Part shown: positions 19,037 to 49,124 of the stretch, piece by piece | How positions within the stretch are numbered: position 1 is the first letter of the stretch | Layout of the letters: each line of letters opens with the position of its first letter | From: Eremomyces bilateralis CBS 781.70 | Taxonomy: Eukaryota; Ascomycota; Dothideomycetes; Eremomycetales; Eremomycetaceae | Assembly (NCBI RefSeq): GCF_010015585.1 | Contig: NW_022985068.1 | Location: 1,371,406 to 1,435,405, forward strand | Length of the DNA stretch: 64,000 nt | Direction: 5' to 3' | Notes under the pieces: generated by a model | Told to the model about the DNA's origin: nothing | Database searches by the model: none | What the model saw: the letters and a program-made list of their open reading frames with translations, nothing else | Made by a program: the position numbers and the translations under genes

Positions 19037-20458
19037 ATGGCGGAAAATCCGAGCCCCAAGATCCCTGAAGGTCAAGCTTCTGTTTTCGGTGGTCTTTCTC
19101 AAAGTCTTTCATTCCATTCCTCCCCCGAAGACTTCATCGCATCCCGCATTCAAGTCGTGGATCAAGCTCATCGAGCTGGCCCAGCTGTCATTCGCGCGAA
19201 GATTCTGAATAGAGACGTTGCCATAATTTCTTCCCACAGGCTGTGCGAAGGTGTTTTGCGAGATGGAAATCCAGATGATCCAGTAATCACAACCCAAGGG
19301 AGGATTCCACATCGAAACACCTTTACTGCGGGGTCGGCGTATCGACAACTCATGGCTGACTTCTTTCCCCCCCCTAATCTACTCCTAATGGACTATGACG
19401 ACCACTCAGTCAAGCGAGAATCCTGGGAAAAACATCTCTCATCATTTCACTCGGATGTTACTCCAACAATACACGACATTACAAACGACCACATCTCCAG
19501 TTGGACCAACAGCAGTCCAATTGATTTGTATGATTCACTGAAAAGTCTCTCTTGGCGGATTATTCTAGGCATCTTTCTCCAGCTTCAGCCAACAGACGAA
19601 TTGTACCCAACTATTCAATCGCTTCAGGAAACGCTACTACGAGGCCAGTTCTCACTACTCCCGATAGCCCTTCGAACTCCGTTCTGGCACTCCCCGCGTG
19701 CAAAAGGTCTCGAAGCACGCCAGAAGCTCCAGGCCCTACTCAAGGACCACATCGTCACACAGAGCACAGAATGTCCGTTTTCAAAGCCAGGAGATATCTC
19801 AAAAGACGAGTTAGCCACGCACAGTCTTCTTTTTACCAGTTCACTTTCCGTCAAGGCGCTGGCATCGCTTCTCACCGCAACCATTTTAAACTTGTTCATT
19901 ATGCCCGGTGAGTCGTCGTTGGCGTCTCGCGTTCGAGCTGAGGTTTCAAATGATTCTGCCCAAAAGCTTTTGAGAAGCATACTTCTCGAAACGGAGAGAC
20001 TGAGTCCTCCCATCGTGGGGGTAATGCGTCGAGTAAATCAAGAGGTGATACTCTTGGATCCACACAGCCAGCCGCCCTCCCGCATCCCAGCCGGATGGGA
20101 CGCGTGGTTGTATTTCAGCGGCGCCGCTCGAGATAGGACGGTTTATCCGGAGCCTGATACCTTCATTCCGGAGCGATATCTTGAGCCCGACATGACCAAA
20201 CCGGGATTTGCATTCGGACATGGGGCCAAGACTTGTCTAGGCAAACCCCTCGTTCAGCAGATTGTTATGACGGTGGCCCAGGCGATTTTGCAATCAAACA
20301 TCCACCTTGATGGGAATGTTCATGCCGCAGGCGTTCGAGGGTGGCTAGGTTGGGAGTCTGGAGTCAGTGCGGATGCTTTCGCGAGGGATTTGAAACAATT
20401 ACCTTGCCAGAGGCCAAAGGATCCGATTCATATTCATGTAGTACGTGATCAGATATGA
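19037..20458 (+). CDS. Cytochrome P450 monooxygenase
   Basis: An intronless 473-residue frame. The haem-binding signature FAFGHGAKTCLGKPL places the axial cysteine at residue 400. The K-helix ExxR is E318-R321 (ETER), and the PERF-like segment EPDTFIPERY lies about 45 residues before the cysteine. The N-terminus has no obvious membrane anchor, unlike most fungal microsomal P450s, and the enzyme is slightly short. The I-helix oxygen-binding motif is not canonical (residues about 255-275), so the reaction could be atypical. The gene opens a five-gene block with lipid-type enzymes and converges on the TLC-domain gene (230 bp between stops). The substrate is unknown; the neighbours suggest a lipid-like or long-chain molecule. 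Confidence 0.9.
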   Translation: MAENPSPKIPEGQASVFGGLSQSLSFHSSPEDFIASRIQVVDQAHRAGPAVIRAKILNRDVAIISSHRLCEGVLRDGNPDDPVITTQGRIPHRNTFTAGSAYRQLMADFFPPPNLLLMDYDDHSVKRESWEKHLSSFHSDVTPTIHDITNDHISSWTNSSPIDLYDSLKSLSWRIILGIFLQLQPTDELYPTIQSLQETLLRGQFSLLPIALRTPFWHSPRAKGLEARQKLQALLKDHIVTQSTECPFSKPGDISKDELATHSLLFTSSLSVKALASLLTATILNLFIMPGESSLASRVRAEVSNDSAQKLLRSILLETERLSPPIVGVMRRVNQEVILLDPHSQPPSRIPAGWDAWLYFSGAARDRTVYPEPDTFIPERYLEPDMTKPGFAFGHGAKTCLGKPLVQQIVMTVAQAILQSNIHLDGNVHAAGVRGWLGWESGVSADAFARDLKQLPCQRPKDPIHIHVVRDQI

Positions 20459-20687
20459 TTGTTCGGGCTGACGAGATATCTTTTATGGTAGAGAAGAGTC
20501 CAATCTAGAAATTGAGGAGATATTCCATTAATTACTCTATCCTCGCAATCGAAGTAAGAGATGAATAATCTTGACTGAGCTGATTAAGGTTTCCACAGTA
20601 GAGGCAAATTTCGAGCGGCTGCATCTTCTGGATATACATTATTTTCACCGGCAAGAAAAAATGAGTCTATTGTTTGCTGATTTTTAG

Positions 20688-21618
20688 CTAGCGTACAAGA
20701 TACCGTCTACCAAAGTTTCTAATACCCAGAAGCAGCCATATTGTATTTGTGATGCCTATTGCACCTGTGCCAAACTGGCATGACCGGTGAAGGTGAAGAT
20801 AGGCATCGACAGCTGAACGTCCCGTTTGTCGGCCAAAAGCGTACAATATCCAATAAATAAGGTAGACACGGCACAAAGCATAGACAGACAGATAGAGAAA
20901 GTGCGATAAAGCTATGGTTCTAGTTCGAGAGGGACTGGATTTGACCAAGTACCAACGCAAGGTTCCAAAAGGGGTCCTACCGAGAAAGTATTAGTCTACT
21001 TTAGTAGATGTGCATGTAGGAAACTCAAGCAACGTACGACGCGTTCATAACCATCAGCATTAAGATGATTAGTATACCCTTCTCTTTCCCCCGGGCAATA
21101 TACCACTGCAACATCCCCAGTCCAACTAGGAGTCCACCATGGTGGTATCCCAGTATTCGCCAGTTGATTGCCTTGGTCAAACTTCCTTTGCCACACTGTT
21201 GGCTACGTAGGTACGCACCAATCAATAAGATCACAGAATCTTGGGCCAAGTATGCAGTCTCGATGGTAACCAGACTGTTTGCCAGTGTGGACCGCGCGGT
21301 AATGATGGAGGAGGAAGATCCACTTGAAATTTTGTTGATATTTTCACCGGAGATGTCAAGGCCAGATAGGTTCCCTATGGAGTCTACGGAGGAGCTGTTG
21401 GGTGGCATCCATTTATCGCGCTGTTTGTAGAGTTCATATATTGATGCGAGGGCCACGAAGGAGCAATGCAAAGCGGAGACAGCTTCCCGGGATTTGGAGA
21501 ATTGCAACGGAGAGGGTTTTCGGGGAAGAAGCAGACGAAAAGCAAGAGGGTAAATCAAGAATGATGCCAAAAACGATGTTGATTGAGAAACATTCCAAGG
21601 TTGAACTGAAGTGGCCAT
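20688..21618 (-). CDS. TLC-domain multi-pass membrane protein
   Basis: Exon 1 is 21618-21038 and exon 2 is 20976-20688; the 61-bp intron opens GTACGT and ends GGTAG. Joining restores ...MNASTPFGTLRWYL..., a TLC-type signature loop. The product has 289 residues with about six hydrophobic spans. A paired histidine in ILGYHHGGLLVG fits the position of TLC-fold histidines, but the ceramide-synthase Lag1 motif (HDxSD) is absent, so it looks more like TLCD-type proteins than a true ceramide synthase. The ATG at 21618 (MATSVQPW) is preferred over the upstream in-frame start at 21858, which would overlap the neighbouring gene. It runs in the same direction as, and 167 bp downstream of, the CDP-alcohol phosphotransferase. 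An ER lipid-modifying or lipid-sensing role is inferred, not shown. Confidence 0.78.
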
Positions 21619-21785
21619 TTCCTCCGATATTCTTTTGAAGAGGCTGTTTTGCCTTGCCCGGAGGTGGAGCGCAAAGTAGAATTGAGGAAAAATAAGACAG
21701 CCGTGTTCTCTCGAGAGGCTCTTGAAGTCAAATCGAGGAGTTTTAATTAATCCATGTCCATTGGTCCTAGCGAGAAACCACCACC

Positions 21786-22400
21786 CTACTTCAAGGATGA
21801 TACCAGAAATCGTACTCGCTGAGCAATGCCGAAAGCCACAGCTAAGCTCATGATCCATGACAAGTTACCGACCCATCCCGGCCATATAAGCATTATAGAA
21901 AACAATATACCGCTCTCAAAACCCTCGACCAACGCCGGGTACATAGAAACACTCGTCAACTCATCCGCTTTCGGTGTTCCTGCGGCAGCGGCATAAAACA
22001 GAACGAAATTATTGATGTGGAATGAGGTCTCGAGAACAGCAACAGCCAACCAGTCAAGATGAGTGAGTGTGTTACGCTGCTGGAACGCGATTGCAATTGG
22101 TAGAAGTGAGTAGACGATAAAGTCGCAGAGAAGATCAATGAAGCCGCCAAGTTCTGAAGCAATTCCCCTGCTCCTGGCCAGAGATCCGTCGAGGCTGTCA
22201 AGGGTTCGATTCAATAGCCATAGAACAATGGCGCATGGAAGTCGGTCTTGGGTGGTTGATAGTGACTGGGCAAGACAAGACCCTAATCCACAAGCAAAGG
22301 CAAGAAGTGTGAGAGAGTTTGGAGTTAGAAATGACGGGACTAGGGCACAGACTGGTTTGGCGAGAGTTTCTTTAGTGTGCCTCAACGCAAGGTCGAACAT
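21786..22400 (-). CDS. CDP-alcohol phosphotransferase
   Basis: An intronless 204-residue integral membrane protein. It carries the complete family signature D68-xx-D71-G72-xx-A75-R76-x8-G85-xxx-D89-xxx-D93 (in DSLDGSLARSRGI and ELGGFIDLLCD), the metal-binding site that moves a phospho-alcohol group from a CDP donor to an acceptor hydroxyl, releasing CMP. About six membrane spans follow the usual pattern. It is small compared with cholinephosphotransferases (about 400) and matches the size of phosphatidylglycerolphosphate- or phosphatidylinositol-synthase-like members. It is divergent from the adjacent hydroxylase, with 306 bp between start codons that contain a 10-bp repeat array. Primary-metabolism enzymes of this class are not normally found beside a P450 and a transporter, which suggests a specialised role. 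Confidence 0.88.
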   Translation of the reverse strand: MFDLALRHTKETLAKPVCALVPSFLTPNSLTLLAFACGLGSCLAQSLSTTQDRLPCAIVLWLLNRTLDSLDGSLARSRGIASELGGFIDLLCDFIVYSLLPIAIAFQQRNTLTHLDWLAVAVLETSFHINNFVLFYAAAAGTPKADELTSVSMYPALVEGFESGILFSIMLIWPGWVGNLSWIMSLAVAFGIAQRVRFLVSSLK

Positions 22401-22706
22401 AGTGTGAAATTTGACTTTTGAGAGGTGATTCTGTTGAGAATCAAGATACCTCGATGTCCTTATGACGCTGATAGCCCCGCCGCTAGCCCTGCCTACAGCA
22501 AAGCAATAACTACTAGCTTACTGGTAACTATACGCCCCCTGTCGTAAGCATAATGCAGCAGCCGGGGATAGGAATCCTTCTGATTAGTCATATTTGCGAT
22601 TTATCCCTGACTATATTTTTCTAACATGGAAATCCACCTGCACTGAATTGCACTGAATTGTACTGAATTTCACTGAATTCCATCACGTACTTCGAAGAAC
22701 ACCATC
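22401..22706. promoter_or_regulatory. Divergent promoter between CDP-alcohol phosphotransferase and hydroxylase genes
   Basis: This 306-bp interval must contain both start regions. It includes a fourfold 10-bp direct repeat at 22641-22680, only 27 bp before the hydroxylase ATG, plus an A/T-rich stretch TGACTATATTTTTCT at about 22608. Shared control of the two genes is a reasonable inference. Confidence 0.6.
22641..22680 (+). repeat. Four head-to-tail 10-bp repeats (CACTGAATTG unit)
   Basis: The four units are cactgaattg, cactgaattg, tactgaattt and cactgaattc, so ACTGAATT is invariant. The 10-bp period places each copy on about the same face of the helix, as expected for a multimeric regulator site, although slippage could also make such an array. 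Confidence 0.85.
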
Positions 22707-23771
22707 ATGATAATAGACAGTTCACCACTATGTCCATCTCAATCAGTATCATCCCTCTTTACCCTCCGTATCATTCTATTATTATTCCTGCTCACTACAA
22801 TCCTTATCCCTTGGCTGTATGATCGAATTCTCTCAAATGTCTACAGCTTCCTCGCTCAGTCAACCTTATACCGACTATCAATCTTCGAGACTCTGGAGAC
22901 TGTCTTCTGTTATGGGTATATTGAAGCCTCATTCATAACCCAATTCGTCCGCAACCCTTCTCTTCGCATTGATATCCGCCGTACATCAAAGGGAGCCGAT
23001 TCCGGATCCACACTCGAACATCCAAAACGACCACGAATGCGACGTCCATCTCGGCGCCTTTCTGAAGTTGTGCTTTATGTCGCCCCACTCTTGGTGCTGG
23101 ACTTCACCCTCGTGAAAAAATATGCCAATGTAAGCGTTGCAGACATTCGGCGCAGTGGCGGGTATCCGTCATTTCATGACTCCGTTGGCAGCAATTTCCT
23201 CGCCCCCAGCTTCCACAAGTTCTCCTTAACTTCTCCGCTCCAGCTATGGCGAGCGCTTCCCACGGAACCCCCAAGTAGCCGCAGACTTGTACTGGAGCTC
23301 ATCACTGCTGTCTTCATCTATGACGGGTTGTTTTTTTTCGCCCACCTTGCCTTTCACCGCATACGTTTTCTGGCATATTTCCATAAGCCACATCATCAGC
23401 ACGGCGAAATCCATCCACAAGTCACAGACCAGCTATCGGTTGTGGAGCGTCTCACGCTAGTCTTGCTCGCAAACTTTTCTCTCAATATCATTGGCGGCCA
23501 TGTTCTCACACGCACCATCTTCATTCCCGTCTTTGTGTACCTTCTCATTGAGATACACTCGGGGATGGATTTACATTTTGGATTTGAAAAGATACTACCA
23601 CAAGGCTGGGCTACCGGTGCTAAAAAGCATGCTCAACATCATCGAGAAGGGGATGGTAGCTTCGCGCCCTTTTTTTGTTGGTGGGATTATGGGTTAAGCA
23701 TTTGGGACGATTTTCGAAGAAATGTGCATCATGTAAAAAGACGACAGAAGAGGACTCTATCTTCAATATAG
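22707..23771 (+). CDS. Fatty-acid hydroxylase / sterol desaturase superfamily membrane di-iron enzyme
   Basis: An intronless 354-residue frame. It has three histidine clusters of the superfamily in order: HLAFH (H213, H217), HKPHH (H226, H229, H230) and HAQHH (H308, H311, H312), which bind two irons and insert oxygen into a C-H bond of a lipid substrate. Hydrophobic spans lie at about residues 20-42, 100-112, 195-215 and 240-275. A single His (HSGMDLHFG, about 285-293) also fits the family. The ATG at 22707 is the first in frame and gives a first membrane span at a normal place. C-5 sterol desaturases, sphinganine C4-hydroxylases and cholesterol-25-hydroxylases all share this layout, so the substrate cannot be read from sequence. 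The neighbours suggest it acts with the P450 on a common lipid-like product. Confidence 0.88.
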   Translation: MIIDSSPLCPSQSVSSLFTLRIILLLFLLTTILIPWLYDRILSNVYSFLAQSTLYRLSIFETLETVFCYGYIEASFITQFVRNPSLRIDIRRTSKGADSGSTLEHPKRPRMRRPSRRLSEVVLYVAPLLVLDFTLVKKYANVSVADIRRSGGYPSFHDSVGSNFLAPSFHKFSLTSPLQLWRALPTEPPSSRRLVLELITAVFIYDGLFFFAHLAFHRIRFLAYFHKPHHQHGEIHPQVTDQLSVVERLTLVLLANFSLNIIGGHVLTRTIFIPVFVYLLIEIHSGMDLHFGFEKILPQGWATGAKKHAQHHREGDGSFAPFFCWWDYGLSIWDDFRRNVHHVKRRQKRTLSSI

Positions 23772-24071
23772 GACGATAGTGAGTTATTTGTTCTTGTGAA
23801 TTTGGACGGAGATATATAGGTCATGCTCCGAAAAACAAGGGCGATGAAGACTTCATGCGAACTATATACGATTGAATCCATACCAACTTACGCTGAACCC
23901 TCGATCATCTGTGATTACAAACCCCGGGCCAGCTGCTGTATTCCTGCCTTAATATTTTGAAGGTGAACATGGTTGAGCTATCGTTCTTTTGGTGCGATTT
24001 CATATGTATCCAAAAATATTCAGGGGTTGAGTGACGCTGTTGAACTTTTGAATTCAGGTCGCTGTCTGCTA
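23772..24071. other. 300-bp convergent spacer
   Basis: This separates the 3' ends of the hydroxylase and the transporter genes. No feature is recognised. Confidence 0.6.
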
Positions 24072-25598
24072 TTATATTTTGTATACTAAGTTAAGAGTGA
24101 AAAGGACAATAACAAGCACTATCAGCACTCCAACCCCTATCCAGTGATTTCTCTTCCTTGATGTCTCTCTTCCTTCCATACCAGCCATGGAAATTGCGGA
24201 CCTTTTGATATCTGCCTTAACCAACGGAATGCATAAAGCGAATCCGATAGAGCTCAGAATATAGCCAAGAGGGATGATGACAGCAAGTATAATCTTTAGG
24301 CTCTGCGCATAGTTTTCGCTGTCCGGGTTCACTCCATCCAGTGCCAGACCAACAATCTCCGGGCCAGAGGAATAGATGAGCACCACAATTGCCGAATAAA
24401 TCGAAAATGCGAAGGTCTTGTACTTTGGAGGAAACAAAATGACTAGCAATCCATTTACTGGACCAAGCCATAGCTCCGCAGTAACGTATGCTGCCGCAAG
24501 GGTACCGTAAAGGACCTTTACGCCTGACTCTTTGTCTCCGACAAGTTCTCGTGAGAACACCATAAGAATGACAAAGACGCTGCTGAGCACTCCGCCCGCC
24601 GAGACGAGATAAAGTGGGGTAAGCTTCGTCTTGGGCCAGAGCGCTGACGTGACCAGGCCGCCAGAGAGGGATGTGGCAGAACCAACGACACCAACGATGA
24701 TGCCGTAAACCGAGGTGAGATTTTTCGTCTCGGGGTAAAGTTGTTGGAGATACCCGGGCATGTAGTAACCAAACACAACGCCTGACAGCGTCCGGACTCC
24801 CGCAGCAAGCGTATAGAGCCAGAAGGACCTCATAGATATGACGTAGTTCAGTGTGTTCCGAAACGATGTTCCCTGGCCATTTCCTTCTCCTTCTCCCTCG
24901 TCAGTCAGACTCCGTGCGATAGCGTCACGCCGTCGAGGTTCTTTCCACATGACCACACGTATAACAATTGCTAATCCGATTCCGAAGATGCCGACCCCCT
25001 TTAAAGCCCAACGCCAACTGGTCCCTGTCCTGCGGAAAACGGTCGAAATCTGACCACTGATGGCTTCACCGACATAGATTCCCATGTAAAGGACGCCTTC
25101 CCCCGTAGAGACGTATCTCCTTGGGCCCATCAAGTCGGAAATCAGGCTCACAGTCAAGGCTTCGACCGCACTTTGACCGATTCCCATTGATACCCGAGCA
25201 GTGGCTATTTGCCAGTAATTATGAGCAAGTCCTTGAAACACGACAGACAAGGACCACCATGCGATAGACAAGGTGAGTATCCACAAGCGCGCTTTAGAGC
25301 GATCGGCGATGGAAGCCAGAGGAATGGAAAGAATGGCAAATGATATTCCAGTGGCGTAACCCGAAAGAATGGCATATTCACTTGATGATATGTTAAGTTC
25401 AGTTGTGAGTGGGAGCTGAAAGTATGAAAGGATAAACCGATCGTACTGGGCGAGAAAGAAAGCCGTAAAGAGTAGTGCAACCGATATAATGGTATAAACC
25501 TGGGATAGATAGGAGGGATTCCTTGCGTCTCTCTGGACGCTGCTGTTAGGGGAATAAGGCAAGGCCATGCCACTTTGGTAAAGCTCCGATTTACCCAT
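24072..25598 (-). CDS. Spinster-like MFS transporter
   Basis: An intronless frame of 508 residues from MGKSELYQ, with about 12 hydrophobic spans. The first span is preceded by a short polar tail. The loop-2 sequence SIADRSKARLWIL is an MFS motif A, and YDRFILSYF, GIGQSAVEALTVSLISDL and WSLSVVFQGLAH correspond to conserved Spinster-family positions. Members include the sphingosine-1-phosphate exporter Spns2 and lysophospholipid carriers. A longer in-frame start at 25919 would add 107 residues unlike the family, so 25598 is preferred. As the only carrier beside four lipid-type enzymes, it is a likely exporter of their product or a self-protection pump; this is inference. Confidence 0.87.
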   Translation of the reverse strand: MGKSELYQSGMALPYSPNSSVQRDARNPSYLSQVYTIISVALLFTAFFLAQYDRFILSYFQLPLTTELNISSSEYAILSGYATGISFAILSIPLASIADRSKARLWILTLSIAWWSLSVVFQGLAHNYWQIATARVSMGIGQSAVEALTVSLISDLMGPRRYVSTGEGVLYMGIYVGEAISGQISTVFRRTGTSWRWALKGVGIFGIGLAIVIRVVMWKEPRRRDAIARSLTDEGEGEGNGQGTSFRNTLNYVISMRSFWLYTLAAGVRTLSGVVFGYYMPGYLQQLYPETKNLTSVYGIIVGVVGSATSLSGGLVTSALWPKTKLTPLYLVSAGGVLSSVFVILMVFSRELVGDKESGVKVLYGTLAAAYVTAELWLGPVNGLLVILFPPKYKTFAFSIYSAIVVLIYSSGPEIVGLALDGVNPDSENYAQSLKIILAVIIPLGYILSSIGFALCIPLVKADIKRSAISMAGMEGRETSRKRNHWIGVGVLIVLVIVLFTLNLVYKI

Positions 25599-26450
25599 AT
25601 TGCCTATTGGATAGATGCACAATAGAGCAGTGTTGTAAAAGTGTGACGAAGGACGTGGAGACAAATGGGAAGTTAAGACTAAATACTTATCATTTACTGT
25701 CGCAGCGTTACGGTCACAGCATAGCTGCATATTGGAGAGAGAAGTTGGTGCAGGGCACGCAGGAATGGGATGATTCATGACTCTCGATATCGGCGACGAA
25801 GATACAAGGATCAAAAATCTACCGTGTACGATGTCCTCAGGCCGAACAGCCGGAAGCTGGCCGATGAAGAGCTTGAAGGTTGCGGTCTGCGGACAACTCG
25901 TGTCCCCCGTCCGAGCCATTTCGCCGATGAGTGGCCCGACTCATGACATCAATGGCCCAGATCAGACGGAAATCTCGTTCTGATCAATGGGAAAGTGATA
26001 TCGTGGCATCTTGGCTTTAGTTGATTCTTTCAAATGAAGGTTAGCGCAACCTTTAGTTAGAAGGAATACGTTATGCGCCCCTGGGACCTGTAGAGGAATA
26101 TGACCCTGGTTAGAAGGAATGAATAATACGCCCCTGGTCATGACAGAATTGATACGTGTGGGTCGGTCCCAGCTACGCGGGGAACAGGCGGGTCGGGGTC
26201 TGATTATCCTATTCCGGTCAGTGTCCATTTACGTTGGGACTAGGAAGGGAGGCTATCACGATCACAGGCTGACAGGCGGGAGAGGCCATCCTTTGGCGTT
26301 TGGACATGTCCCTTGGAAAAAACAAGCCATCGAGAAATTGTTGACCCTCTCGAAAGTCGAAACCTGTTCCACATGCTGATTCACAATCGGTTCACATTTG
26401 GATGCCAGCTGCCAAACTGCTCACTAACTATAGTTAGAGTAAACTAACTA
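25599..26450. other. Intergenic upstream of the MFS gene
   Basis: This should include the promoter of the transporter. CTAACT/AGTTAG words are frequent near 26430-26450, next to the MITE insertion point. No gene is recognised. Confidence 0.5.
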
Positions 26451-26874
26451 ACGTATTCCACAAGCGAGTGGCCCATACAAGCGAGTGGCCCAGCTCATTT
26501 TACTAGTAAATTCGACAAAATTCGATATCAATATCTCAACAACCACTGGGTAATATAGTCTGAAAACTTAGAATTAGGTTTTCCTATCGATTTCTAGCTT
26601 ATTATTAGAATCTTAGAGCTTTATCTTTTAAAGTTATAAAGATATAGAGATTTGGTCTCTAAATCTTGCCAAGAAGTAGGTATCTCTATACCTGTAAAAG
26701 CTAGGGCTTTAATATTTCAATAGTAAGCTAGAAATGGCTAGGAAAACCTAACTCTAAGTTTTCAGACTATATTATCCAGTGGTTGTTGAGATATTGATAT
26801 CGAATTTTGTCGAATTTACTAGTAAAATGAGCTGGGCCACTCGCTTGTATGGGCCACTCGCTTGTGGAATACGT
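26451..26874. mobile_element. 424-bp MITE, pogo/Fot1-like (Tc1-mariner superfamily)
   Basis: A near-perfect terminal inverted repeat of about 150 bp at each end (about 26451-26600 and 26725-26874), flanked by TA on both sides (26449-26450 and 26875-26876), the target duplication of Tc1/mariner elements. The outermost sequence is ACGTATTCC. Each arm holds two direct copies of CAAGCGAGTGGCCCA, a subterminal arrangement like that of the fungal Tan1/Vader family, which also begins ACGTA. The short A/T-rich centre has no transposase, so the element is non-autonomous and would fold into one long hairpin. The arms differ at only a few positions, suggesting a fairly recent insertion. Confidence 0.88.
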
Positions 26875-26980
26875 TAGGTACAAGCATGTTGACATTGCCG
26901 TTAGACAACATTAAAATAGTTAGAGGTTGAATAAATTATATGTAGGGGCGGCTAGCTAGCTACAGTCTCTCAATAATTAG

Positions 26981-27433: not shown

Positions 27434-28944
27434 AACTTTTAGTGCTGAAGCTTGATTGATGAGGATTTTGTCTGGGTTGTGCGGGCGTTTTCCAAGGTTG
27501 GATGTGAGGTTTCAATGTTTTGGGGGGTAAACTGAAGTATATCTGGATCTGGGGACAAGTGATAAGAAGCAACTAGGTATTTATATCAAAACATGAGCGT
27601 CCGGTGACTGCGTCTTCGGGTGATTAGAATCTTTCCATTTGGTCATACGTCATAAGTTGCTGCTGCGCACAGTAAGACGCCTTTCAATATGTACTAATTC
27701 TTCAGCTTCTGAAACCCGACGAACGGATTCTATGGCGAGATGGCCTCTGAAAGGTAATGGTGGGAAGTGTAGTAACGGCGGCTATGGTTTTAGCAACTCG
27801 TCATGCAGAATCCAGCCTCACAGGACTAGGCGGATTATCCTATCCTAAATCCTGATCAGCCTCTGTTTACGGATACGTATACGGAGTAGAGTAATGCTGT
27901 GATAGCCTTCGTGCTCGGTATTCGCAGCTTGGTGGTGGATTACGTTAGTTAGCTGATATGATTAATAACTAACAGGGCACGCAGGTTGGCCTAGAGCAGG
28001 CCGCTCGTGATTGGCCAGTTAACGATAGAGCTCTAGGTATTCAGCACTTTCTCCACTCTGTACAACCACACGCGACACCACACGCGACATCATAAATCCG
28101 CGTTCTGCACCTGTCATGTTTCTATCGTACAATTCTGGAATAGATATTTTTTAATGATTAATCTTTATCTCATGCTTCAGGTACTCGCTAATAAATGTCC
28201 GAGACTGTGCTTTACAATGCTGCTTTCCAAAGGTTTCAGCGATGTCGCGTCTCCTCCTATCGCCTGATTGCTCCCAGTACTCTCAGGCTATATTCAACAT
28301 ACGCCCCTTTTTCTGCTCAGTCCATCGTCAGTCAATGTGTTCCATTAGGCTTCTATTTGTGACTTGAGCTTGCTTGTTCATGTTGACAGAGGAGTTTTTG
28401 AGTCAAGCGCCCAGGGCTCATCAATGTGCCCGACGCTCTGGTCGGCGCCCCAAAGGTCGGCGCCAAAGTCTACCTTGAATTGTCTTCACCAATGGAATCA
28501 GCCACCGAGATGGTTGTCCTCGGTGAATCGCCTGAAATGGGAAACCTACCACTACCTGAAACACTATCAACACATCGGATGTGCTGGAGGCCTGGAATAT
28601 GTCCCTCAGTATGTGTCTCACAGCCTCGATCACCGACTTGAGCCTCTCTTCTGTCTATAGAATCGATCGATATGGGAGTTGTAGGATTCGTAAAAAGTGT
28701 ACCCTTACTGTCAAGCCTCCTTCGCCTGCATAATGCATACAGCTCAGATGCCTCGCCGCAATCATGAAATATTGCAAGTCTAGATTTAAATAACGTACTG
28801 CCCAACTTGCTGATTTGAGATGATATTGCACATTTTCCATCTACCTCTTTTTGTTGCATGCATTTATTACTTAGTGGATAATTCCTTCTCTGAAACATAT
28901 TTCATGAGCATCTTTAGCGGAGACTGAGTCGTCCACCGTTCACA
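27434..28944. other. 1.5-kb divergent intergenic region
   Basis: This holds promoters for the small conserved protein and the large GHKL-ATPase gene. Overlapping frames at 28364-28660 (plus) and 28470-28898 (minus) are open for about 100-140 codons but carry no known motif. They might be remnants of another gene. Confidence 0.5.
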
Positions 28945-31900
28945 ATGGCAACCATTTCAAGGAAAGAGGCTGATCAGTTCATCAAAAATCTGCGAACGAA
29001 AACTGGAGGGATAACCCAAGATGATCGAGATTTCTTGAAAAAGCATGATAGGCTTGATTTACTGGAGGTGATACTCACCCTCAGACGGAGATTAGGGGCG
29101 TCGACAAGAACGTACGTTGATTTTCAACCGCCCTTTGCAACACATACCGATCGAACGGTCGGTATTTGCACATGGTTTATAAATACTCACGCGAAATAGG
29201 CTTGCTACCAATCTGTACGCCAAAGATACTCGATTCGTTTTCGAGCTTATTCAAAATGCGGAAGACAACAAATACTCGATCGCTGAGAGCGCTCTCGAAG
29301 ACCCCTTTCTTTCGTTCACTCTGGAACGGGGCCAAATCATCATTGATTCGAATGAGGATGGGTTTACAGAACAGAATATACAAGCTATTTGCTCCGTCGG
29401 CGAGAGTACAAAGGCTAACAGTCAGGGTTATATTGGCGAGAAGGGCATTGGCTTCAAGTCTGTCTTCAAAGTTGCTCGGAAAGTTCATGTTCAGTCCGGC
29501 CCGTTTTCCTTCTCATTCGAGTACAACCATGATGATGATGAAGCGGGTCTCGGGATGGTCACGCCAATACTTGAAGAGCATCCTAAACTCCCGGAGTCAG
29601 TGAGGACCCGCATGATATTGTCCCTCAGCGAAGACTGCGACTGGCAAGCACTACGAGGTGAATTTCTGGGTTTGCCGGACACTCTGCTGCTCTTCCTGAA
29701 GAAATTAAAGAAGCTCAAAATCGCTGTACCTGGACGGGGCTTTGGGGGATACACTGAAAGCATTGAGTACGAATTGACGTCCTCGCGTCACCGCGCCAGC
29801 ATCACCAAACGGATGCTGAACCCCGACTCCATCCAGAAGCAAGATTATTGGATCACGAAAAGAGAAGTGAATGACATGCCTAGAGACAATGCTCGCAGAA
29901 ATATCACTCGCAGCGAAGTCCTCCTTGCTTTCCCGCTGGACGATCAAGATATTCCTATTATTGAAGTACAGCATGCGTTTGCATTTCTTCCTCTGCGAAA
30001 GGCTGGATTCAAGGTTCGTTCATAACCAAAGGTGCTCGTTCTGGTCATTAATCTCACAAATCCCTAGTTTCTGATACAGTCCGATTTCATCACCCAAGCA
30101 AGTCGCGAAGACGTCTTCGACTCGCCCTGGAATCGGCATCTGCTTGCAGAGGTTGCCTCTGCCTTTGTTAACAGTACTAATGGGTTTCTCAAACATCCGA
30201 AGCTAAAGTACCACTGGGTACGATATGTTCCGACGGAAAGCATCCCTGATGATTTCTGGGGCCAACTTCAAACTCAAATCCTTGCCACCCTCAAGAAAAA
30301 ACATGTGTTCTTTGCTAGAGATGATAACTCCCTATGGCGCGCAAACCAGATGCTCTTCGTTGGCAAGGAGTTCAAAGATGAACACGGGCAGCCACTTCTT
30401 CCTGCATATCATTCTGGACCAAGCACACCAGATTCCGAAGCTTACGCGTCCGAAGAATACGATGACAGGCTTAACCGCCAGGCTCTGAAGAGCTTGGGAG
30501 CCCGGAATTTGTCTGTCGCAGGTTTCCTCAAGATCGTCCAGGACGACTTGACTCGACGATCGTCGAAAATACGGTCCACCCCCTACTCGTCAACCTGGCA
30601 TACGAAGGTGGCGGACCTGCTGAACGAGGCGATCGAAATGCACTCAAAGCTTCAGGCTGTCATGGCGCTCCGGATTGTTCCTCTGAGCACTGGCAACTGG
30701 GCGAGCCCCCAAAATGCAAGCATATACTTCCCGTTCTCGGAAGGAGTCGAGATTCCAGATGATCTGCCTCTGAGCCTGGTTGATACACTTTCACTGAGCA
30801 ATGAGAGCCGGAAGGTCCTATTTACACGCCTTGGGATTACCGAATGTAAACCGGAGCTTGTATTCCCGCTCATCAACCAGCAATACCAGCGTGCTGGCAC
30901 AACTCGATCACAAGCCCTGTCACACATTAAGTTTGTTTTTTGGCATAACAGATATCTCCAACCGAACCAGCTAGGATCCATTCGTATTCCACCGCAATTT
31001 GGAAACCATTGGCTTGACATCAACAGCAGCAGCGTGGGTAGGTGGGCCTATTGTCCTCGCTCCGAACATGCCTATTCAATGTACAAAGTCCTTGAATCCA
31101 CGATGCCGGCTGAGTTGGAACAGAAGACCTTCTTTCCAACCATTTCTTGCTACAAGATGCTCGAACAACTTGAGCGTCGCCACAACTTGACAGGCATTGA
31201 GTGGTTCAGAGGATTCATCGAAGCCAAGGAGACACCTCAATTTAGTAAGAGGAACAAGACAAAGGTTTTATCCGCTGAGATAAAATACGTGGTGGATCAT
31301 TCGAGCCATTTCTTGCTCGGTGCGCTTGAAGCCTGCCAGAGTCAATATCCGCCGCAGTCATCGACGGAAGCTTACAGCTACTTCAAACAGGCGTTGGTCC
31401 CTATACTTCGCTCCGAACAACGCAGGCCACTTAAGGATACACGACTCCCTTTACCTAAACTTCGCAGCATCGTAGCTCGACTTGGGCTAGAAGAGGGGTT
31501 TGGGTTCTGCGCGGAGCTTGAAGGAATTACGGATGATGAAATCACTAAATGGAAATTTCTTAGTACGTTTGGAGTCATCGTCGATGAGGATGTATCCTTC
31601 TGGATTGCGCTTCTGGATCAGGCTCGGATTCAATCCACTGAACCCAGAGTCATCTTCGAGATCTATTCAAACTTGCAGAGGTACTTCGAAGATGGTGACT
31701 GGGGAAAAATTGCGTAAGTGTCTATATAATGCCTACGATATGGGGCTGATAGACTGACTGAAACGTATCAGAAATGCCTTCGGGGGTGGAGATAAAGTCT
31801 TCATTCCTTCAGGAATGCCTGACGGCCGCCCTTGTTGGACTACGTTGGAGACCTGCGTATGGGATGCCCCAGATTGGTTCTCATTTAAGAATCGACTCGA

Positions 31901-34175
31901 AGCCATTGATGGATATCAAACATTGCACATCCTTTTCGGCCTAACCCTTGGGGTAGAAAGCGCGAGTGTTGATGACTTTCTGGCCAACTTGGGTCACATC
32001 AAGGAAGCCACGGGAAATATGCCGGAAGAGGAATCGAAGATCCCTTTGCTGTACCAAGAGCTCAGCAAAGAGTCGAAGGAAGCAGACACTGCCAAGGATG
32101 CCATCAGGTATGTAGCAAAGTATCGATGTTTGGGAAGCAGAGCATTGATATGGTGGCAGATCCCAATTCGAAAGCGACCAGCTGGTTTACCACCCTCAAA
32201 CCCGATCATGGCATGCACCATCAGCGTGCATTTGGGCTGAAGAACGGATCCATCTCCCAGGCAAGGTCTCTATTGCGACCGCATATAAAGGGCACACTTC
32301 CTTTTTCTGCAGCCTTTTGAAAGTGCCGAAGCCGGACCTGGATATGCACATAGCCGCTCTCCAACAGAAGACACTGCACAATCCTGATAGACAGAGCATC
32401 CTGGAGGAGGTAATCAACATCTGTGCTTTAGGTCCAACCCCACACGCACTCGAAAGCCTTTCTGCGACCAAATGTTTTCCGGTTAGGCGTAGCTTGGGGG
32501 CCGTCGAATGGGTCAACCGGGAGCACCAATTCGTAGTCGTTGACCGGAATGAACTTGCCGAGCTCTTTGCTGGAAAGGCCGACATGCTTGACTACTCGTT
32601 GGAAGAATCCCACAGCATTAAGCCGTTCCTGCTGGGTATGGGCCTGCAAAATCGCTCCATATCCCGCATGGTGAAAGAAAAGACTACCGTCCAAGGAGGG
32701 TCTCCCGCGCCTGAGCTTACACGAAATCTGAGGAAGATAGCATACGCGATATTTCGGTAAGTCTTCGGCCGTGATAATGTACCGTCGATGATCGATCTAA
32801 TCTTATCAGTTACGCTGCCCATTTTGGAGGCAGATCGACGCAACAGGAGCCTGCAGCTGCATACGAGCGTCTACAGACTATGGAGATCCTTACGAGTGAC
32901 GGTATCTCGCAATCTGTTTCACTTCCTCCCCATGGACCATCGTCTACCGTTCAGACTGATCATGCATATTTCCATCTCGACCACCAGGAAAATGTCTTGA
33001 AGCTCTACGTTCCCAAGGACAAGGAGGACAGGGAGATTTGCCTTTCGACCGAACTTCCCATAGCGCTACTTAAACACCTTGGCGTCGAAGACCATGAGCA
33101 AGGAAGGGCCCTTGGAACCGTCATCACGGCATCTTCGCTTTCTGTGGTAGAGAAGATCCTTGAGCACCAGGGTATAATCAGTGTCGAAGGCATTACTCGG
33201 CCGCAGGAAGAGCTGTCGCCCGAGCCAGAGGCACGCGAGACGGTTTCTACACCCATCAGCAGGCTCTTGTCTCGTTCAGAGACTCCTTCGACCCTAGCAA
33301 GCGGGATACAGTCACCTTCGGAGACTCTGTGGCGTCGCGGTGCGGGCTTGCACTCGACACCCGATCCAGTACCGTCTGATTGGGACGACGATGTGTTCTC
33401 GACACCAGGAACGTCTGTATATGGTGTGCCGCCGGGCCGCCCTGAGCGCCTCACCCTCTACCGAGACCTCCTGGACGGTGTGATTCGACAGGCAGCAAAC
33501 CTATCTGACCTACCAGTGGCAGGACAGATTCTGCAATCGCCTTCAGTTCCACATATGGTTGCAACGTGGGATGCCATTGCCTCATCATACTTCATGGAAA
33601 CGGATTTCAAGATCGGGGTCGCTGGGGAACTTTTCGTACGTTATGAACCCCCCGCGACACAAATTCCTCAGGATGATACTAATGACAGGCAGGTGTTCGA
33701 ATTATTGCAAAGCCTCGGCCTACCAGATTTTGGACGCCACAACTGGCAGAGCACTATACGTGGTCGAGCGAAGGTACATAAACGCTACTCAGATATTCAG
33801 AACTGGGCCGGCTCCGAAACTGCGGATATTGTCTATCAAGACCGAGATTGCACACTCACGAAGTTGCTGGTTGAAAAGGGATATCTGCGAGCCGATGTCT
33901 GGGCTGACCATTCGCCAGAATATTACATCGAAGTCAAGACGACTGTATCGACTCTCAAAACGCCATTCTATTGTAGTCAATTGCAGTATGATCGAATGGA
34001 AACAATGAGGTTGGTCGGGAACATCGCGTCGGATAAGATCTATCTGGTTGCGAGAGTCTTTGCACTTGGCGATTCTGGCATGGGATTGAAGCTGTATTTG
34101 GATCCAGCGACGCTCCGAAGCGAGAGGCAGTTGGACTTCAGAGCGGAGAAATACAGTGTGACACCGTTGGCGTAG
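28945..34175 (+). CDS. Giant GHKL (HSP90-like) ATPase protein with NO VEIN/DUF3883-like C-terminal domain
   Basis: Seven exons: 28945-29111, 29200-30013, 30068-31713, 31772-32107, 32160-32756, 32810-33635, 33693-34175; all six introns (52-88 bp) keep frame, giving 1622 residues. After a short helical N-terminus comes a Sacsin/NO VEIN-type GHKL ATPase: ELIQNAEDN (N75), the DSNEDGF loop, and GYIGEKGIGFKSVF as the glycine-rich ATP lid. A large helical middle follows. The C-terminal part (about 1440-1580) has NWQSTIRGRAK, ADIVYQD and YYIEVKTT (E1542, K1544), the core of the DUF3883/NOV_C fold, related to restriction-type nucleases. The last intron is 57 bp and stop-free, so retention also gives an open frame; homologous spacing (GELFVFELL) favours splicing. 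In plants NO VEIN acts in vesicle traffic and cell fate; the fungal role is unknown. Confidence 0.88.
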
Positions 34176-34583: not shown

Positions 34584-35606
34584 ATGACAACCAATCGACG
34601 AAAACCCCCCAAAAACGAGATGAACGGTCGTCCACCTTCCCTCCATCCCACCACCAAACCCCCCTCACCGCCTCCAATCCTCAAAACTCCCCTCCTCCCC
34701 ACCCCCAACGAGCTCCTCCTCCTCTCCATCTACCCCATCACTCTCCTCCTTGGCCACCTCTATAGCCTCCTCTCCCCCACCACCCGCCACCTCCCCTACG
34801 ACCCTGTCGCGCAATCCCACCCCGCCGCCCACGCCCCCTCCTACTTCGCCCGCAAAAACAACCTCCTCAACCTCCTCTTCGTCAAGCTCGGTTGGCTGTG
34901 GACCACCGTCGTGCTCGCGCTGTTCGTTGCCACGCACCCGCGGTTCGGCGTCGGGGGGCTGTTTACCGGCGGGGGCGTGTTGACGGCGCGCGAGGGGGAG
35001 GCGGCGCAGACGAGGGGGTTGCGGAGGGCGGGGCAAGTGGTGCTGAGGTGGGCGGGGAGTACGGGGGTGTGGTATCTGGTTACGCAGTGGTGTTTTGGGC
35101 CCGGATTGGTGGATCGGAGCTTTGCGTTGACGGGGGGGCGGTGTCAGGTGTTGAAGGATCCGGTGGCGATGGAGGAGATGGGGAAGGCGGGGGAGGTGTT
35201 TACGAGGGTGGCGTGCAAGGCGGCGGGGGGGCAGTGGAGGGGAGGACATGATATTTCGGGACACGTGTTTATGCTGGTTTTGGGGAGCGCGATGGTTGCG
35301 GCGGAGGTGGCGCCGGCAGTGGTGAGCTGGGTGAGGTTGGTTAGGGATCGGAATGGCGTAACGACTACGATGGGGTCGGACGGTCAAGAGACGGATGATA
35401 GTGCAGTAAGCGGCTTGGGAGTCAAGGCCGCAGCGGTGTATCTGGCTTTGAGCTGGTGGATGTTATTGATGACGGCGTTATACTTCCACACTTGGTTCGA
35501 GAAGTTGACCGGCCTCATCATTGGACTTGCTGGATTCTGGCTCATTTATTATCTCCCGAGAGGCATGGCGCCGGTTCGAGCCATCGTTGGAATGCCGGGA
35601 TTATGA
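34584..35606 (+). CDS. scs3: FIT/Scs3 family ER membrane protein (acyl-CoA diphosphatase, lipid droplet biogenesis)
   Basis: An intronless 340-residue frame. Two catalytic histidines of FIT proteins are visible: GGHDISGHVF (H222) and FHTWFEKLTG (H302), separated by hydrophobic segments. FIT2 hydrolyses long-chain acyl-CoA at the lumenal ER face and supports lipid droplet and phospholipid homeostasis; yeast homologues are Scs3 and Yft2. The N-terminal 45 residues are Pro/Thr-rich and disordered, then about six membrane spans follow (LLSIYPITLLLGHLY first). GC content is high in the middle third, which also opens long shadow frames on the other strand. The ATG at 34584 is the first in frame. 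It lies between the ATPase gene and Rab5, converging on the latter. Confidence 0.88.
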   Translation: MTTNRRKPPKNEMNGRPPSLHPTTKPPSPPPILKTPLLPTPNELLLLSIYPITLLLGHLYSLLSPTTRHLPYDPVAQSHPAAHAPSYFARKNNLLNLLFVKLGWLWTTVVLALFVATHPRFGVGGLFTGGGVLTAREGEAAQTRGLRRAGQVVLRWAGSTGVWYLVTQWCFGPGLVDRSFALTGGRCQVLKDPVAMEEMGKAGEVFTRVACKAAGGQWRGGHDISGHVFMLVLGSAMVAAEVAPAVVSWVRLVRDRNGVTTTMGSDGQETDDSAVSGLGVKAAAVYLALSWWMLLMTALYFHTWFEKLTGLIIGLAGFWLIYYLPRGMAPVRAIVGMPGL

Positions 35607-39700: not shown

Positions 39701-40074
39701 GATACGATGAACACGCACACATCCTTCCCAGAGTGTCGATATGAGAGTCGCGGCCCCATCGAGTTGCTAGGCGTTAACCTGATCGTTTAGCAACTCATAC
39801 CTCCCCTCTATGGCACCTCCGACGATCTATGACACAATCAAGCGTCGCAGGCGCTCAGATTGACCGGTCGCCGGCCGGTGTTGAGGTGGTTTCTTTGGGG
39901 GCTGGTCAGAGTATTGTTTATGGTATACATACATTTGTTTCAGACAGTGGGAGGCATGGAGTTTATTGCGGGTATACCCAACTAGGTAGCATTGACACTG
40001 GGTTCTTTATAGATACATGCACACAATTCATAATGCACGTCGATATTTACAGTTCGTACTCCGTATGGTGTCTC
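39701..40074. other. 374-bp convergent spacer
   Basis: This contains the 3' flanks of the ING and acyl-CoA synthetase genes. No feature is recognised. Confidence 0.6.
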
Positions 40075-42224
40075 CTACTCCAACCCTTGGCCCTTTTCGA
40101 GCAGATCGACACCTATCTCCCGCAGCTTGAACTTCTGAATCTTTCCCGACGCCGTCTTCGGATAGGTGTCCACCCAAAAGACAAATTTCGGGACTGCACA
40201 CCGTCAGTATTTCTTTCCAATGCAAGACACCAACCGAAAACTTACCCAAATGATGACTGAGCCTCTCCTTCACCCACTCCCGTACCTCGTCTGCGCTGAC
40301 CGCCGCCCCCTCATGCCTCACTACAAACGCCGCCACCACCTCCCCATACCGCTCATCCGGCAACCCTACTACCGCCACCTCCGCCACCGCCGCATGCGCA
40401 AACAGGCAATTCTCCACCTCCAGCGGATGAATGTTCTCCCCCCCCTTGATGATCAGATCCTTGATCCGCCCCGTGATCCGCACGTACCCCTCCGCGTCCA
40501 TCTCCCCTTCGTCCCCCGTGTGCATCCACCGCCGCCCCTCCTCGTCCACCACCAGCACTTCCGCCGTCCGCGCCGCGTCGCCCCAGTACCCTGTCATTAC
40601 GTTATATCCGCACACAGCGAGTTCTCCGCGCTCCCCGACGTCGAGCGCGCGAGTCCAATCGCGTGGATCGACGATCTTCGCTTCCACGTGCGGGAGCAGT
40701 CGGCCTACGGTGTCGATGCGCTTCGCGATCGGGTCGTCGGTCGTGGTCATGCAGCTGACGGGGCTGGTTTCCGTCATGCCGTAGCAGATGGTCAGCTCAG
40801 TGAGGTTGAGGACGCGGTGGAGCTTGCGCATCATCTCGGCGGGGATGGAGCTGCCGGCGGCGATGCCGGTGCGGAGGGAGGAAAAGCCGCCGGGGGGGAG
40901 GAGGGAGGGGTTGGCGGCAAGGAGCTCGAATTCGGCGACGAACATGGTGGGGACGCCGTAGAGGGCGGTGCAGTCGTAGGCGGAGAGGCATTGGAGGGTG
41001 GCGAGGGGGTGGAAGGTTTCGGCGGGGAAGACGATGGCGCTGCCGTGGGTGGCGGTGGCCATGTAGCCGAGGATGCAGCCGAAACAGCTGTGGAATGTCA
41101 GCTGCGATGCTTTTCAGGGGGGTTCTGGGACGTACTGAAATAGTGGTGGTGGGCAGCAGACGACGTCCTTTTCGGTCAAGAGCATGCGGTCTCCGATGCT
41201 ATTCCCGTTGTTGAGGATGCTCCGATGACTCAGACACGCAGCCTTTGGCATCGATGTCGTCCCGGACGTAAACTGGATGTTAACAATATCGTCAGGATGG
41301 AGCCCCTGATCAGGTAGAGCACGCCCTAACATCCCTTCTTCAACCACCTGCGGATAGGAAATCCCTGCTTTAAAGACCGAGGTATCGATCCGGCCGTCAG
41401 AGTTGTTCACTAATACTAGGCCTTTTAACGATGGGACGATCTCGGACTGTAGCCTGGTGCCTTCGAGATTCGGGATCAGTTCACGAAGCAGCGGAACGTT
41501 GGATCGTGGCTCTTTCCGGGGGAGATTGGTCTCTGCCCCTATGATCAGGTGGGACGCTTCCAGATGATTCAGTGCGGATATGACTTGGGGAGAATTGAAG
41601 CCCGGGTTTAACGGGACCTGTTGGAGGGGATGAGCCACTGGAGTAGATGTATCTGGAGCACTCCATGGAAGTGTCGCTCACCAGGATTGCGCCGAGTTTA
41701 AAGGCGGCATATGTTGCCTATATCGAATCAGTAATAGTTCCAAAAGCGGGCTGGAAAGAACTCCTACCGTGGCGAATTCGACATTATTCCCAAGACTCAC
41801 GGCGATTCGATCCCCCTTTTTCACGCCCTGTTTTATGAGACCAAGCGCCAGCGCGTTGCTGTCTCGGTCGAGTTGATCGTACGTGACTCTAGCTCTTTGA
41901 TGATGGGATATAACCCTTTAGTATACAATCCAGTTGCCGTTAGAATCATTATACTCGATCAATACAGATGTCCGCAACCACTCACGCCGGGCGATCTCCA
42001 TGCTGTCTAACCACCGAAGCGAATTGCTCGCCTACGGTTTGCTCGAGGAGCGGTGGCTACATGTAAATCAGCATTTGCTTCCCACTTATATATCTAAATT
42101 CTTTAGAAGTAAATACCTCTGACGGCCCCTTCGCCCACGCCTTCGTCAGCAATCCTCGACAGGTCTGCCGAGTAACCGGTCGAGGTCCACGCAACGCCCA
42201 GGACAGCCGCGACGCCTGCCACAT
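40075..42224 (-). CDS. ACSF2-type medium-chain acyl-CoA synthetase, probably mitochondrial
   Basis: Seven exons: 42224-42117, 42056-41986, 41915-41768, 41717-41682, 41617-41136, 41087-40246, 40193-40075. The introns are 48-70 bp and all frames agree, giving 601 residues. The AMP-binding P-loop reads FTSGTTSMPKAACLSH (237-252). Later motifs are YGMTETSPV, GYWGD, HTGDEGEMDAEGYVRITGR and the C-terminal PKTASGKIQKFKLRE with the adenylation lysine. The enzyme activates a carboxylic acid with ATP and CoA. The N-terminus (MWQASRLSWALRGPRPVTRQ) is basic and free of acids for 35 residues, like a mitochondrial presequence. The third exon start needs an AAAG acceptor at 41916 to give AVISHHQRARVTYDQL, which fits the family better than the later AAAG. 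The 36-bp fourth exon is small but required (ATYAAFKLGAIL). Confidence 0.88.
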
Positions 42225-48050: not shown

Positions 48051-49124
48051 TTACGGGTCGATCAGCCACTGCTTGACGCGCTCATCGAACTTGTGGCCCA
48101 TGAACATCTTCCAGATCAGGCTTAGCGGGCCGTACTCTTCCTGCAGCAGTTGGGAGTAGGCGAAGGGGATTTTGGCGGGTTCGCCTTCGAACTTGGAGTC
48201 GCGGAGGGGGAAGATGTCGTCGGCGAGATAGCGGTGCTTGTCTTTGCAATACATGATTTTTGGGTTCGAGATGTTAGTTCGGAGCGTCGTGATGTCGATG
48301 AATAGTCCGGTAGACATGTCTAAAGGTCTGGTTAGAGAAAGGGAAGACGTCAAGCGGGAAGTGGCATACCGATCCATCTGCCATCAATAACATTCCACTT
48401 ATCGGCAATTGAGTCGTTCTTGTAGAATGGATTGATCTCCAATAAATATCTCCGATGCTGGACTCTCTCCTCCTCCATCATTTCCGGCTTATAATCCGGT
48501 ACCTTCAACCCACCGCCCAGCCCGCTGGCCACCTCCACCGTCCCCCCCGAAACATGCGGCAACGTCGTACCATCCGGACTCGATCCCTCCTCTCCCCACG
48601 GCGCCCTCGGTATCTGGAACTGATGCACCGTCATATTATAGTACCCCGCCAGATGCTCGATGCCACTCTCCGAGACCTGCACATCGATATCGGTGTCCCA
48701 TGGCATGATATGCCCATTCCACCACCACCCGAGCAGCGTCCCGTGCATGATCCAGGTCTCGGCGCCGAGATCGTCCATGGCGCGGAGGTACGTCTTGACG
48801 AGGAGGCGGAGGGTGTAGTGGCGCTCGGCTTCGAGGAGCTCGCGCGCGGCGAAGCGGCCGTCGTAGTGGTGATGGAACTACGGCTCGTGTTAGTGGGTTG
48901 CGGCATTGGGGAGATGGTCGGGGGGTTGGGGTTACCTTTGCTTCGTGGAAGTACTTCTGGCCGCCATCCGGAGTTGGTCCCCGGTCGCTGTTGTCTTCGG
49001 TTAGATATGTCCGTACGTTCCAGAAGTCGGCATCGCGCTTCTGGAGTTGCGGAATTGCGTGGACAAGTCGTATGGAGATAAATAGTACGGCGAGGATCAG
49101 CGTAACTCCACTTAGAACCGACAT
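48051..49124 (-). CDS. LicD-family (MNN4-like) phosphotransferase, type II membrane protein
   Basis: Exons 49124-48936, 48877-48370 and 48319-48051, with introns of 58 and 50 bp, give 321 residues. The N-terminus is a signal anchor (VLSGVTLILAVLFISIRLV). The LicD core follows: WIMHGTLLGWWWNGHIMPWD then DIDVQVSE, the DxD-type nucleotidyltransferase-fold motif, and GLFIDITTL in the last exon. LicD/MNN4 proteins add phosphocholine or mannose-phosphate groups to glycans; here it is most likely Golgi mannosyl-phosphate transfer. The second intron has two acceptors, and only the later one (CTTTAG) yields RWIDMSTGLFIDI. The stop codon overlaps a GTAAGC word, so a further 3' exon is possible. Confidence 0.87.

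Follow-up and report, generated by a model that had tools for sequence, protein, structure and literature searches.

Two kinds of described fungal system are close to the locus reported here. Groups of adjacent fungal genes without a signature gene form 53 families in one Dothideomycete study, in which they were recognized through conserved linkage over 101 genomes (PMC7530617). The mannosylerythritol lipid (MEL) cluster of basidiomycetes comprises five genes, and its product is described as a fungal surface-active lipid (PMC12421966). Here we analyze a 64,000-nucleotide stretch of contig NW_022985068.1 from the Dothideomycete Eremomyces bilateralis CBS 781.70 (hereafter the window), which carries a block of five adjacent genes at window positions 19037-25598. 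The genes encode a cytochrome P450 (P450), a TLC-domain protein, a cytidine diphosphate (CDP)-alcohol phosphotransferase, a fatty-acid-hydroxylase-type enzyme and a major facilitator superfamily (MFS) carrier. We read the block as a possible small lipid-modifying cluster built around head-group transfer, and put the probability of this reading at roughly 40%.

The block resembles the signature-less Dothideomycete groups in consisting of adjacent metabolic genes without a polyketide synthase, non-ribosomal peptide synthetase or terpene synthase. It differs from them in that their linkage is conserved over the genomes of that study, whereas here it comes from one genome. With the MEL cluster, the block shares a set of five fungal genes and, if our reading is right, a lipid-type product, whereas the MEL product is a glycolipid. 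The MEL cluster is not known to encode a CDP-alcohol phosphotransferase, a TLC protein or a P450. Thus, since signature-less groups and the MEL cluster are both known, the kind of locus is familiar and the enzyme set would be the new part. None of the matches listed by our literature search, which left supplementary files outside its range, concerned this five-gene set. A CDP-alcohol phosphatidyltransferase is named once in the gene tables of each of two papers, with no cluster in the portions available (PMC11719821, PMC7010643).

A five-gene block without a backbone enzyme

All five genes that a preliminary description had placed in the block are present as open frames and score above their Pfam thresholds, the TLC gene after splicing. 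The same description had found no backbone enzyme in the window, and our scan agrees: no polyketide synthase, non-ribosomal peptide synthetase or terpene synthase is among the 22 Pfam families found (E ≤ 0.001) in 97 of the 125 open reading frames (ORFs) of at least 115 codons, where the 28 left-out ORFs overlap others and genes made of short exons could escape. From the P450 gene to the MFS gene, the intergenic gaps calculated from the coordinates are 229, 167, 306 and 300 bp. The TLC gene lies in tandem with the phosphotransferase gene, which is divergent from the hydroxylase gene, with 306 bp between the two start codons. The GC content at third codon positions (GC3) is 0.473-0.521 in all five genes. 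In nine of 11 comparison ORFs from the window it is 0.601-0.756. The close spacing and the common low GC3 are compatible with a single unit and are no proof of one. The composite index for repeat-induced point mutation is negative across the whole block.

A YnjF-type phosphotransferase at the center of the block

The phosphotransferase (204 aa; 21786..22400, minus strand) scores 47.8 bits against PF01066 (cutoff 22) and carries the complete DxxDGxxARx8GxxxDxxxD motif at residues 68-93. General models all score it below 50 bits, the best NCBIfam model reaching 45.3. A profile built from 85 bacterial YnjF-type sequences alone gives 155.6 bits over 198 of the 204 residues, and the best solved chain from another CDP-alcohol family scores 49.7 bits against a YnjF-type profile built with the fungal row among its sequences. 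Judged by these profile scores, the fungal enzyme is a member of the YnjF-type family of bacteria, which we found in seven bacterial phyla and which includes the functionally uncharacterized YnjF of E. coli. A tblastn search of plasmid records with the fungal protein matched 61 records, with a gene annotated as ynjF in the matched rows. A scan of GTDB with a six-sequence alignment confirmed at least 529 of 589 candidate stretches, of which the best 80 were retained. The fungal protein aligns over its full length with 57 bacterial rows at 24-38% identity, and M1, D3, R65, D68, D71, G72, R76, G85, D89, D93, Y97 and E162 are invariant across the 58 aligned sequences.

The AlphaFold2 model of the phosphotransferase has a mean predicted local distance difference test score (pLDDT) of 93.9 and shows the six-helix fold of the family. 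Its best Foldseek match is Mycobacterium tuberculosis PgsA1 with CDP-diacylglycerol bound (E 3.2e-5). PgsA1/PIPS, IPCT-DIPPS and AF2299 are among the matches, AF2299 having the highest TM-score of the top rows (0.75), and human CEPT1 appears at rank 16. Because the closest match holds CDP-diacylglycerol and CEPT1 ranks only 16th, we favor CDP-diacylglycerol as the putative donor. The phosphatidylinositol-phosphate synthases and AF2299 share this fold (E 3e-5 to 8e-4, TM-score 0.63-0.75) and an identical catalytic motif, but are only 16-20% identical to the fungal protein in sequence. The complete catalytic motif and the confident CDP-diacylglycerol-type fold support head-group transfer as a likely core step, which the preliminary description had put forward as a possibility.

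In a phylogenetic tree, the fungal protein falls into a fork with 10 Chloroflexota, three Acidobacteriota and one Gemmatimonadota sequence and one unplaced row (support 95/86), a placement that the program rates as unsure. We considered a bacterial origin of the gene on this basis and did not adopt it: with a fungal branch 2.32 long, a single fungal sequence and bacterial rows chosen by similarity, the tree does not demonstrate transfer.

Neighbors of YnjF-type genes in bacteria

For comparison, 86 bacterial loci were gathered, some of them cut by contig ends; 85 contain a YnjF-type ORF (L001-L004 and L006-L086). A complete YnjBCD-like ATP-binding cassette (ABC) transporter lies within 6 kb of the YnjF-type gene in 45 of the 85 loci and a TVP38/FAD-type (flavin adenine dinucleotide) protein in its vicinity in 42, with both present in 34. 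In 32, an ABC binding protein and a TVP38/FAD-type protein are both missing. In the literature searched, we found no description of a function for this bacterial gene set and no occurrence of YnjF as a whole word. The fungal phosphotransferase shares its initiator methionine, the residues D3, Y97 and E162, and the catalytic motif with all of the aligned bacterial proteins. It is unlike them in its very long branch and in its company, which consists of P450, TLC, hydroxylase and MFS genes with no ABC transporter or TVP38/FAD gene in the block.

A fatty-acid-hydroxylase-type gene lies within 100 bp of the YnjF-type gene in five of the 85 loci, all from Alteromonadales (L001, L069, L073, L076, L083); the Pseudoalteromonas pair has an 8-bp overlap. 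The arrangement recalls the fungal one in that a YnjF-type gene adjoins a gene annotated as sterol desaturase family, a member of the fatty-acid-hydroxylase superfamily. The rest of the Alteromonadales operon differs, with ABC transporter and DUF547 genes in place of the fungal P450, TLC and MFS genes. In three Chloroflexi loci (L010, L014 and L022), an FAD enzyme that matches the tryptophan-halogenase family is encoded directly upstream of the YnjF-type gene, hinting at a second redox partner for the YnjF-type enzyme.

The other block proteins and a proposed pathway

The hydroxylase-type protein (354 aa; 22707..23771, plus strand) is a predicted di-iron enzyme of the fatty-acid-hydroxylase superfamily, with 53.9 bits against PF04116 (cutoff 31) and three histidine boxes (HLAFH 213, HKPHH 226 and HAQHH 308). 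No solved relative was found by sequence. A structure model with a pLDDT of 48.9 was too poor for subfamily placement and was not used. Weak matches occur in 39 of 199 genomes of one family (best E 4.5e-8, 24% identity) and a match in one of 18 YnjF-carrying genomes; no close bacterial source of the gene was seen in either set.

The TLC-domain protein (289 aa; 20688..21618, minus strand) is encoded by two exons (21618-21038 and 20976-20688) separated by a 61-bp GT-AG intron (21037-20977). The unspliced ORF gives no TLC match, and removal of the intron yields 41.9 bits against PF03798 (cutoff 24.6). The mechanism described for ceramide synthase CerS6 has the first His of an HH pair carry the acyl group, requires the second His, and treats Asp239 and Asp242 as essential (PMC11919693). 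The fungal protein contains an HH pair at residues 159-160 but no Asp at all in residues 155-215, and thus no counterpart of the CerS6 pair, and is therefore not classed as a ceramide synthase. Acyl transfer via its HH pair is possible.

The MFS carrier (508 aa; 24072..25598, minus strand) scores 90.8 bits against PF07690 (cutoff 33.4). By sequence, 6e8j (E 2.2e-9), a bacterial Spinster, is the sole PDB entry that it matches at E ≤ 1e-3, and its best NCBIfam match is the D-galactonate transporter subfamily (62.9 bits, far under the cutoff of 395). A Spinster-like identity is thus no more than plausible. Spinster carriers are described as moving lysolipids.

The P450 (473 aa, one exon; 19037..20458, plus strand) scores 51.9 bits against PF00067 (cutoff 22.8), with the match confined to residues 310-419. 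It contains ETER 318 as the ExxR motif, PERY 378 and a haem loop with its Cys (FGHGAKTCLG 393). The I-helix acid-alcohol pair usual in monooxygenases is absent: there is no Asp or Glu between residues 258 and 292, and ALASL aligns with AGHET of three cyanobacterial P450s. Hydropathy analysis also revealed no hydrophobic segment in the first ~60 residues that could act as an N-terminal anchor (maximum 0.41). Lacking both the I-helix acid and the anchor, the protein is unlikely to act as an ordinary membrane-bound O2 monooxygenase, and is probably not an ordinary monooxygenase. Hydroperoxide-using P450s likewise typically lack the I-helix acid and the N-terminal anchor, and by analogy with known P450 classes the enzyme may use peroxide or catalyze a rearrangement. 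Among solved structures, its best match is CYP120. This is an ordinary P450 and is uninformative either way about the chemistry.

Possible bacterial sources of the P450 gene were also considered. Four plasmid records match at 24-34% identity, and matches occur in 83 of 301 genomes of one phylum. Because the best of these reaches only E 2.3e-12 at 28% identity, they represent generic distant P450s, and no close bacterial source was seen in GTDB contigs, the plasmid records or the 301 genomes. Pattern searches for relatives in IMG/VR returned one match for the P450, one for the MFS carrier and five for the hydroxylase, and a search of GTDB contigs returned 28 for the P450; none of them was confirmed.

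The motif inventory agrees in part with the preliminary description, which had reported intact signature motifs throughout. This is correct for the phosphotransferase, whose CDP-alcohol motif runs from D68 to D93, for the hydroxylase-type enzyme with its three histidine boxes, and for the ExxR, PERY and haem-loop motifs of the P450, but not for the P450 I-helix or the TLC protein, which has its histidines and not the aspartates. The gene families that it had named and the lipid theme that it had seen are supported.

If the five genes act together, the phosphotransferase would join a phosphodiester-linked head group using CDP-diacylglycerol or another CDP-lipid, and the hydroxylase-type enzyme would hydroxylate or desaturate one of the lipid's chains. 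The TLC protein might transfer or move an acyl chain via its HH pair, and the anchorless P450 without an I-helix acid could perform a peroxide-dependent or rearrangement-type oxidation. The MFS carrier would then export a lysophospholipid-like product. The order of these steps is a guess.

Weighing the alternatives

Several observations weigh against a joint pathway. The two remaining comparison ORFs, with a GC3 of 0.53-0.54, both belong to the sacsin-like gene adjoining the block, so that composition does not set the block apart. No 8-base word is common to at least three of the four block promoters, and the block yielded no match to a transcription-factor family. In the divergent promoter region between the phosphotransferase and hydroxylase genes (22401..22706, 306 bp), a script identified four tandem copies of a 10-bp unit containing ACTGAATT at 22642-22679, an array that is not in the other three block promoters. 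On the bacterial side, the pairing of YnjF-type and hydroxylase-type genes is rare and restricted to a single order. The bacterial and fungal hydroxylases are 20% identical over 121 aa, the fungal hydroxylase query matches just three of the 85 loci (18-24 bits), and the fungal P450, TLC and MFS queries match none. The low hydroxylase identity and the weak matches therefore indicate that the bacterial pairing is a parallel and not orthology.

The main alternative is a chance neighborhood, in which unrelated membrane and oxidation genes serve separate processes in a gene-poor, AT-richer island and make no joint product. We regard this as nearly as likely as the lipid-modifying cluster. The low-GC stretch extends past the block, over about 12-32 kb of the window, and takes in the sacsin-like gene; the promoters share no motif and the block has no regulator. 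P450s and MFS carriers are moreover abundant in fungi. Chance accounts less readily for the presence of three membrane-lipid-type families in neighboring genes spaced 167 and 306 bp apart, or for the recurrence of the YnjF-type/hydroxylase-type pairing in Alteromonadales.

A more specific version of the cluster reading is that the fungus acquired a bacterial YnjF-type phosphotransferase and built around it a backbone-free pathway for an exported phospholipid-type metabolite, the Alteromonadales having paired the enzyme with a hydroxylase-type partner independently. We consider this unlikely. If true, the two independent hydroxylase-type pairings would reveal what YnjF-type enzymes do.

Still less probable is an oxylipin-type pathway, in which the P450 would rearrange a lipid hydroperoxide, the hydroxylase-type enzyme modify the chain and the carrier export a lipid signal, with the phosphotransferase and TLC protein merely supplying or recycling phospholipid. 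The missing acidic residue and anchor of the P450 would suit such a role, and CYP74A is among its weak PDB matches (E 0.003), but its best match, CYP120, is an ordinary P450, and no lipoxygenase or dioxygenase is among the 22 Pfam families found in the window. The sphingoid-like product suggested as one option in the preliminary description, which would make the TLC protein a ceramide synthase, is very improbable: the protein matches PF03798, the family of the ceramide synthases, and has the HH pair, but the aspartates described as essential in CerS6 have no counterpart and no sphingoid-forming enzyme is among the families found in the window ORFs.

Other features of the window

To the right of the block, a hairpin at 26445-26880 consists of two 200-nt arms that are 92% complementary and separated by 36 nt, and an incomplete copy of its end lies at 27918-27952. 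It looks like a miniature inverted-repeat transposable element. The large sacsin/NO VEIN-like gene beside the block (~28918-34175, plus strand) has a SACS domain (E 8e-12) and a weak NOV_C match. Past it lies a FIT/Scs3-like fat-storage gene (34587-35606, plus strand; PF10261, E 5.3e-71), the nearest lipid-type gene found outside the block. An AMP-binding, acyl-CoA-ligase-like gene (40031-41677, minus strand) is separated from the block by 14 kb that hold unrelated genes. An ORF at 48353-48877 (minus strand), 22 kb from the block, gives a partial match to the LicD family (E 4.6e-12), which is associated with phosphocholine or sugar-phosphate transfer.

Implications

If the five genes cooperate, the block would represent a fungal lipid pathway with head-group transfer at its core, of a kind that cluster finders based on backbone enzymes overlook. 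It would also offer a handle on what the bacterial YnjF-type enzymes do, among them the product of E. coli ynjF.

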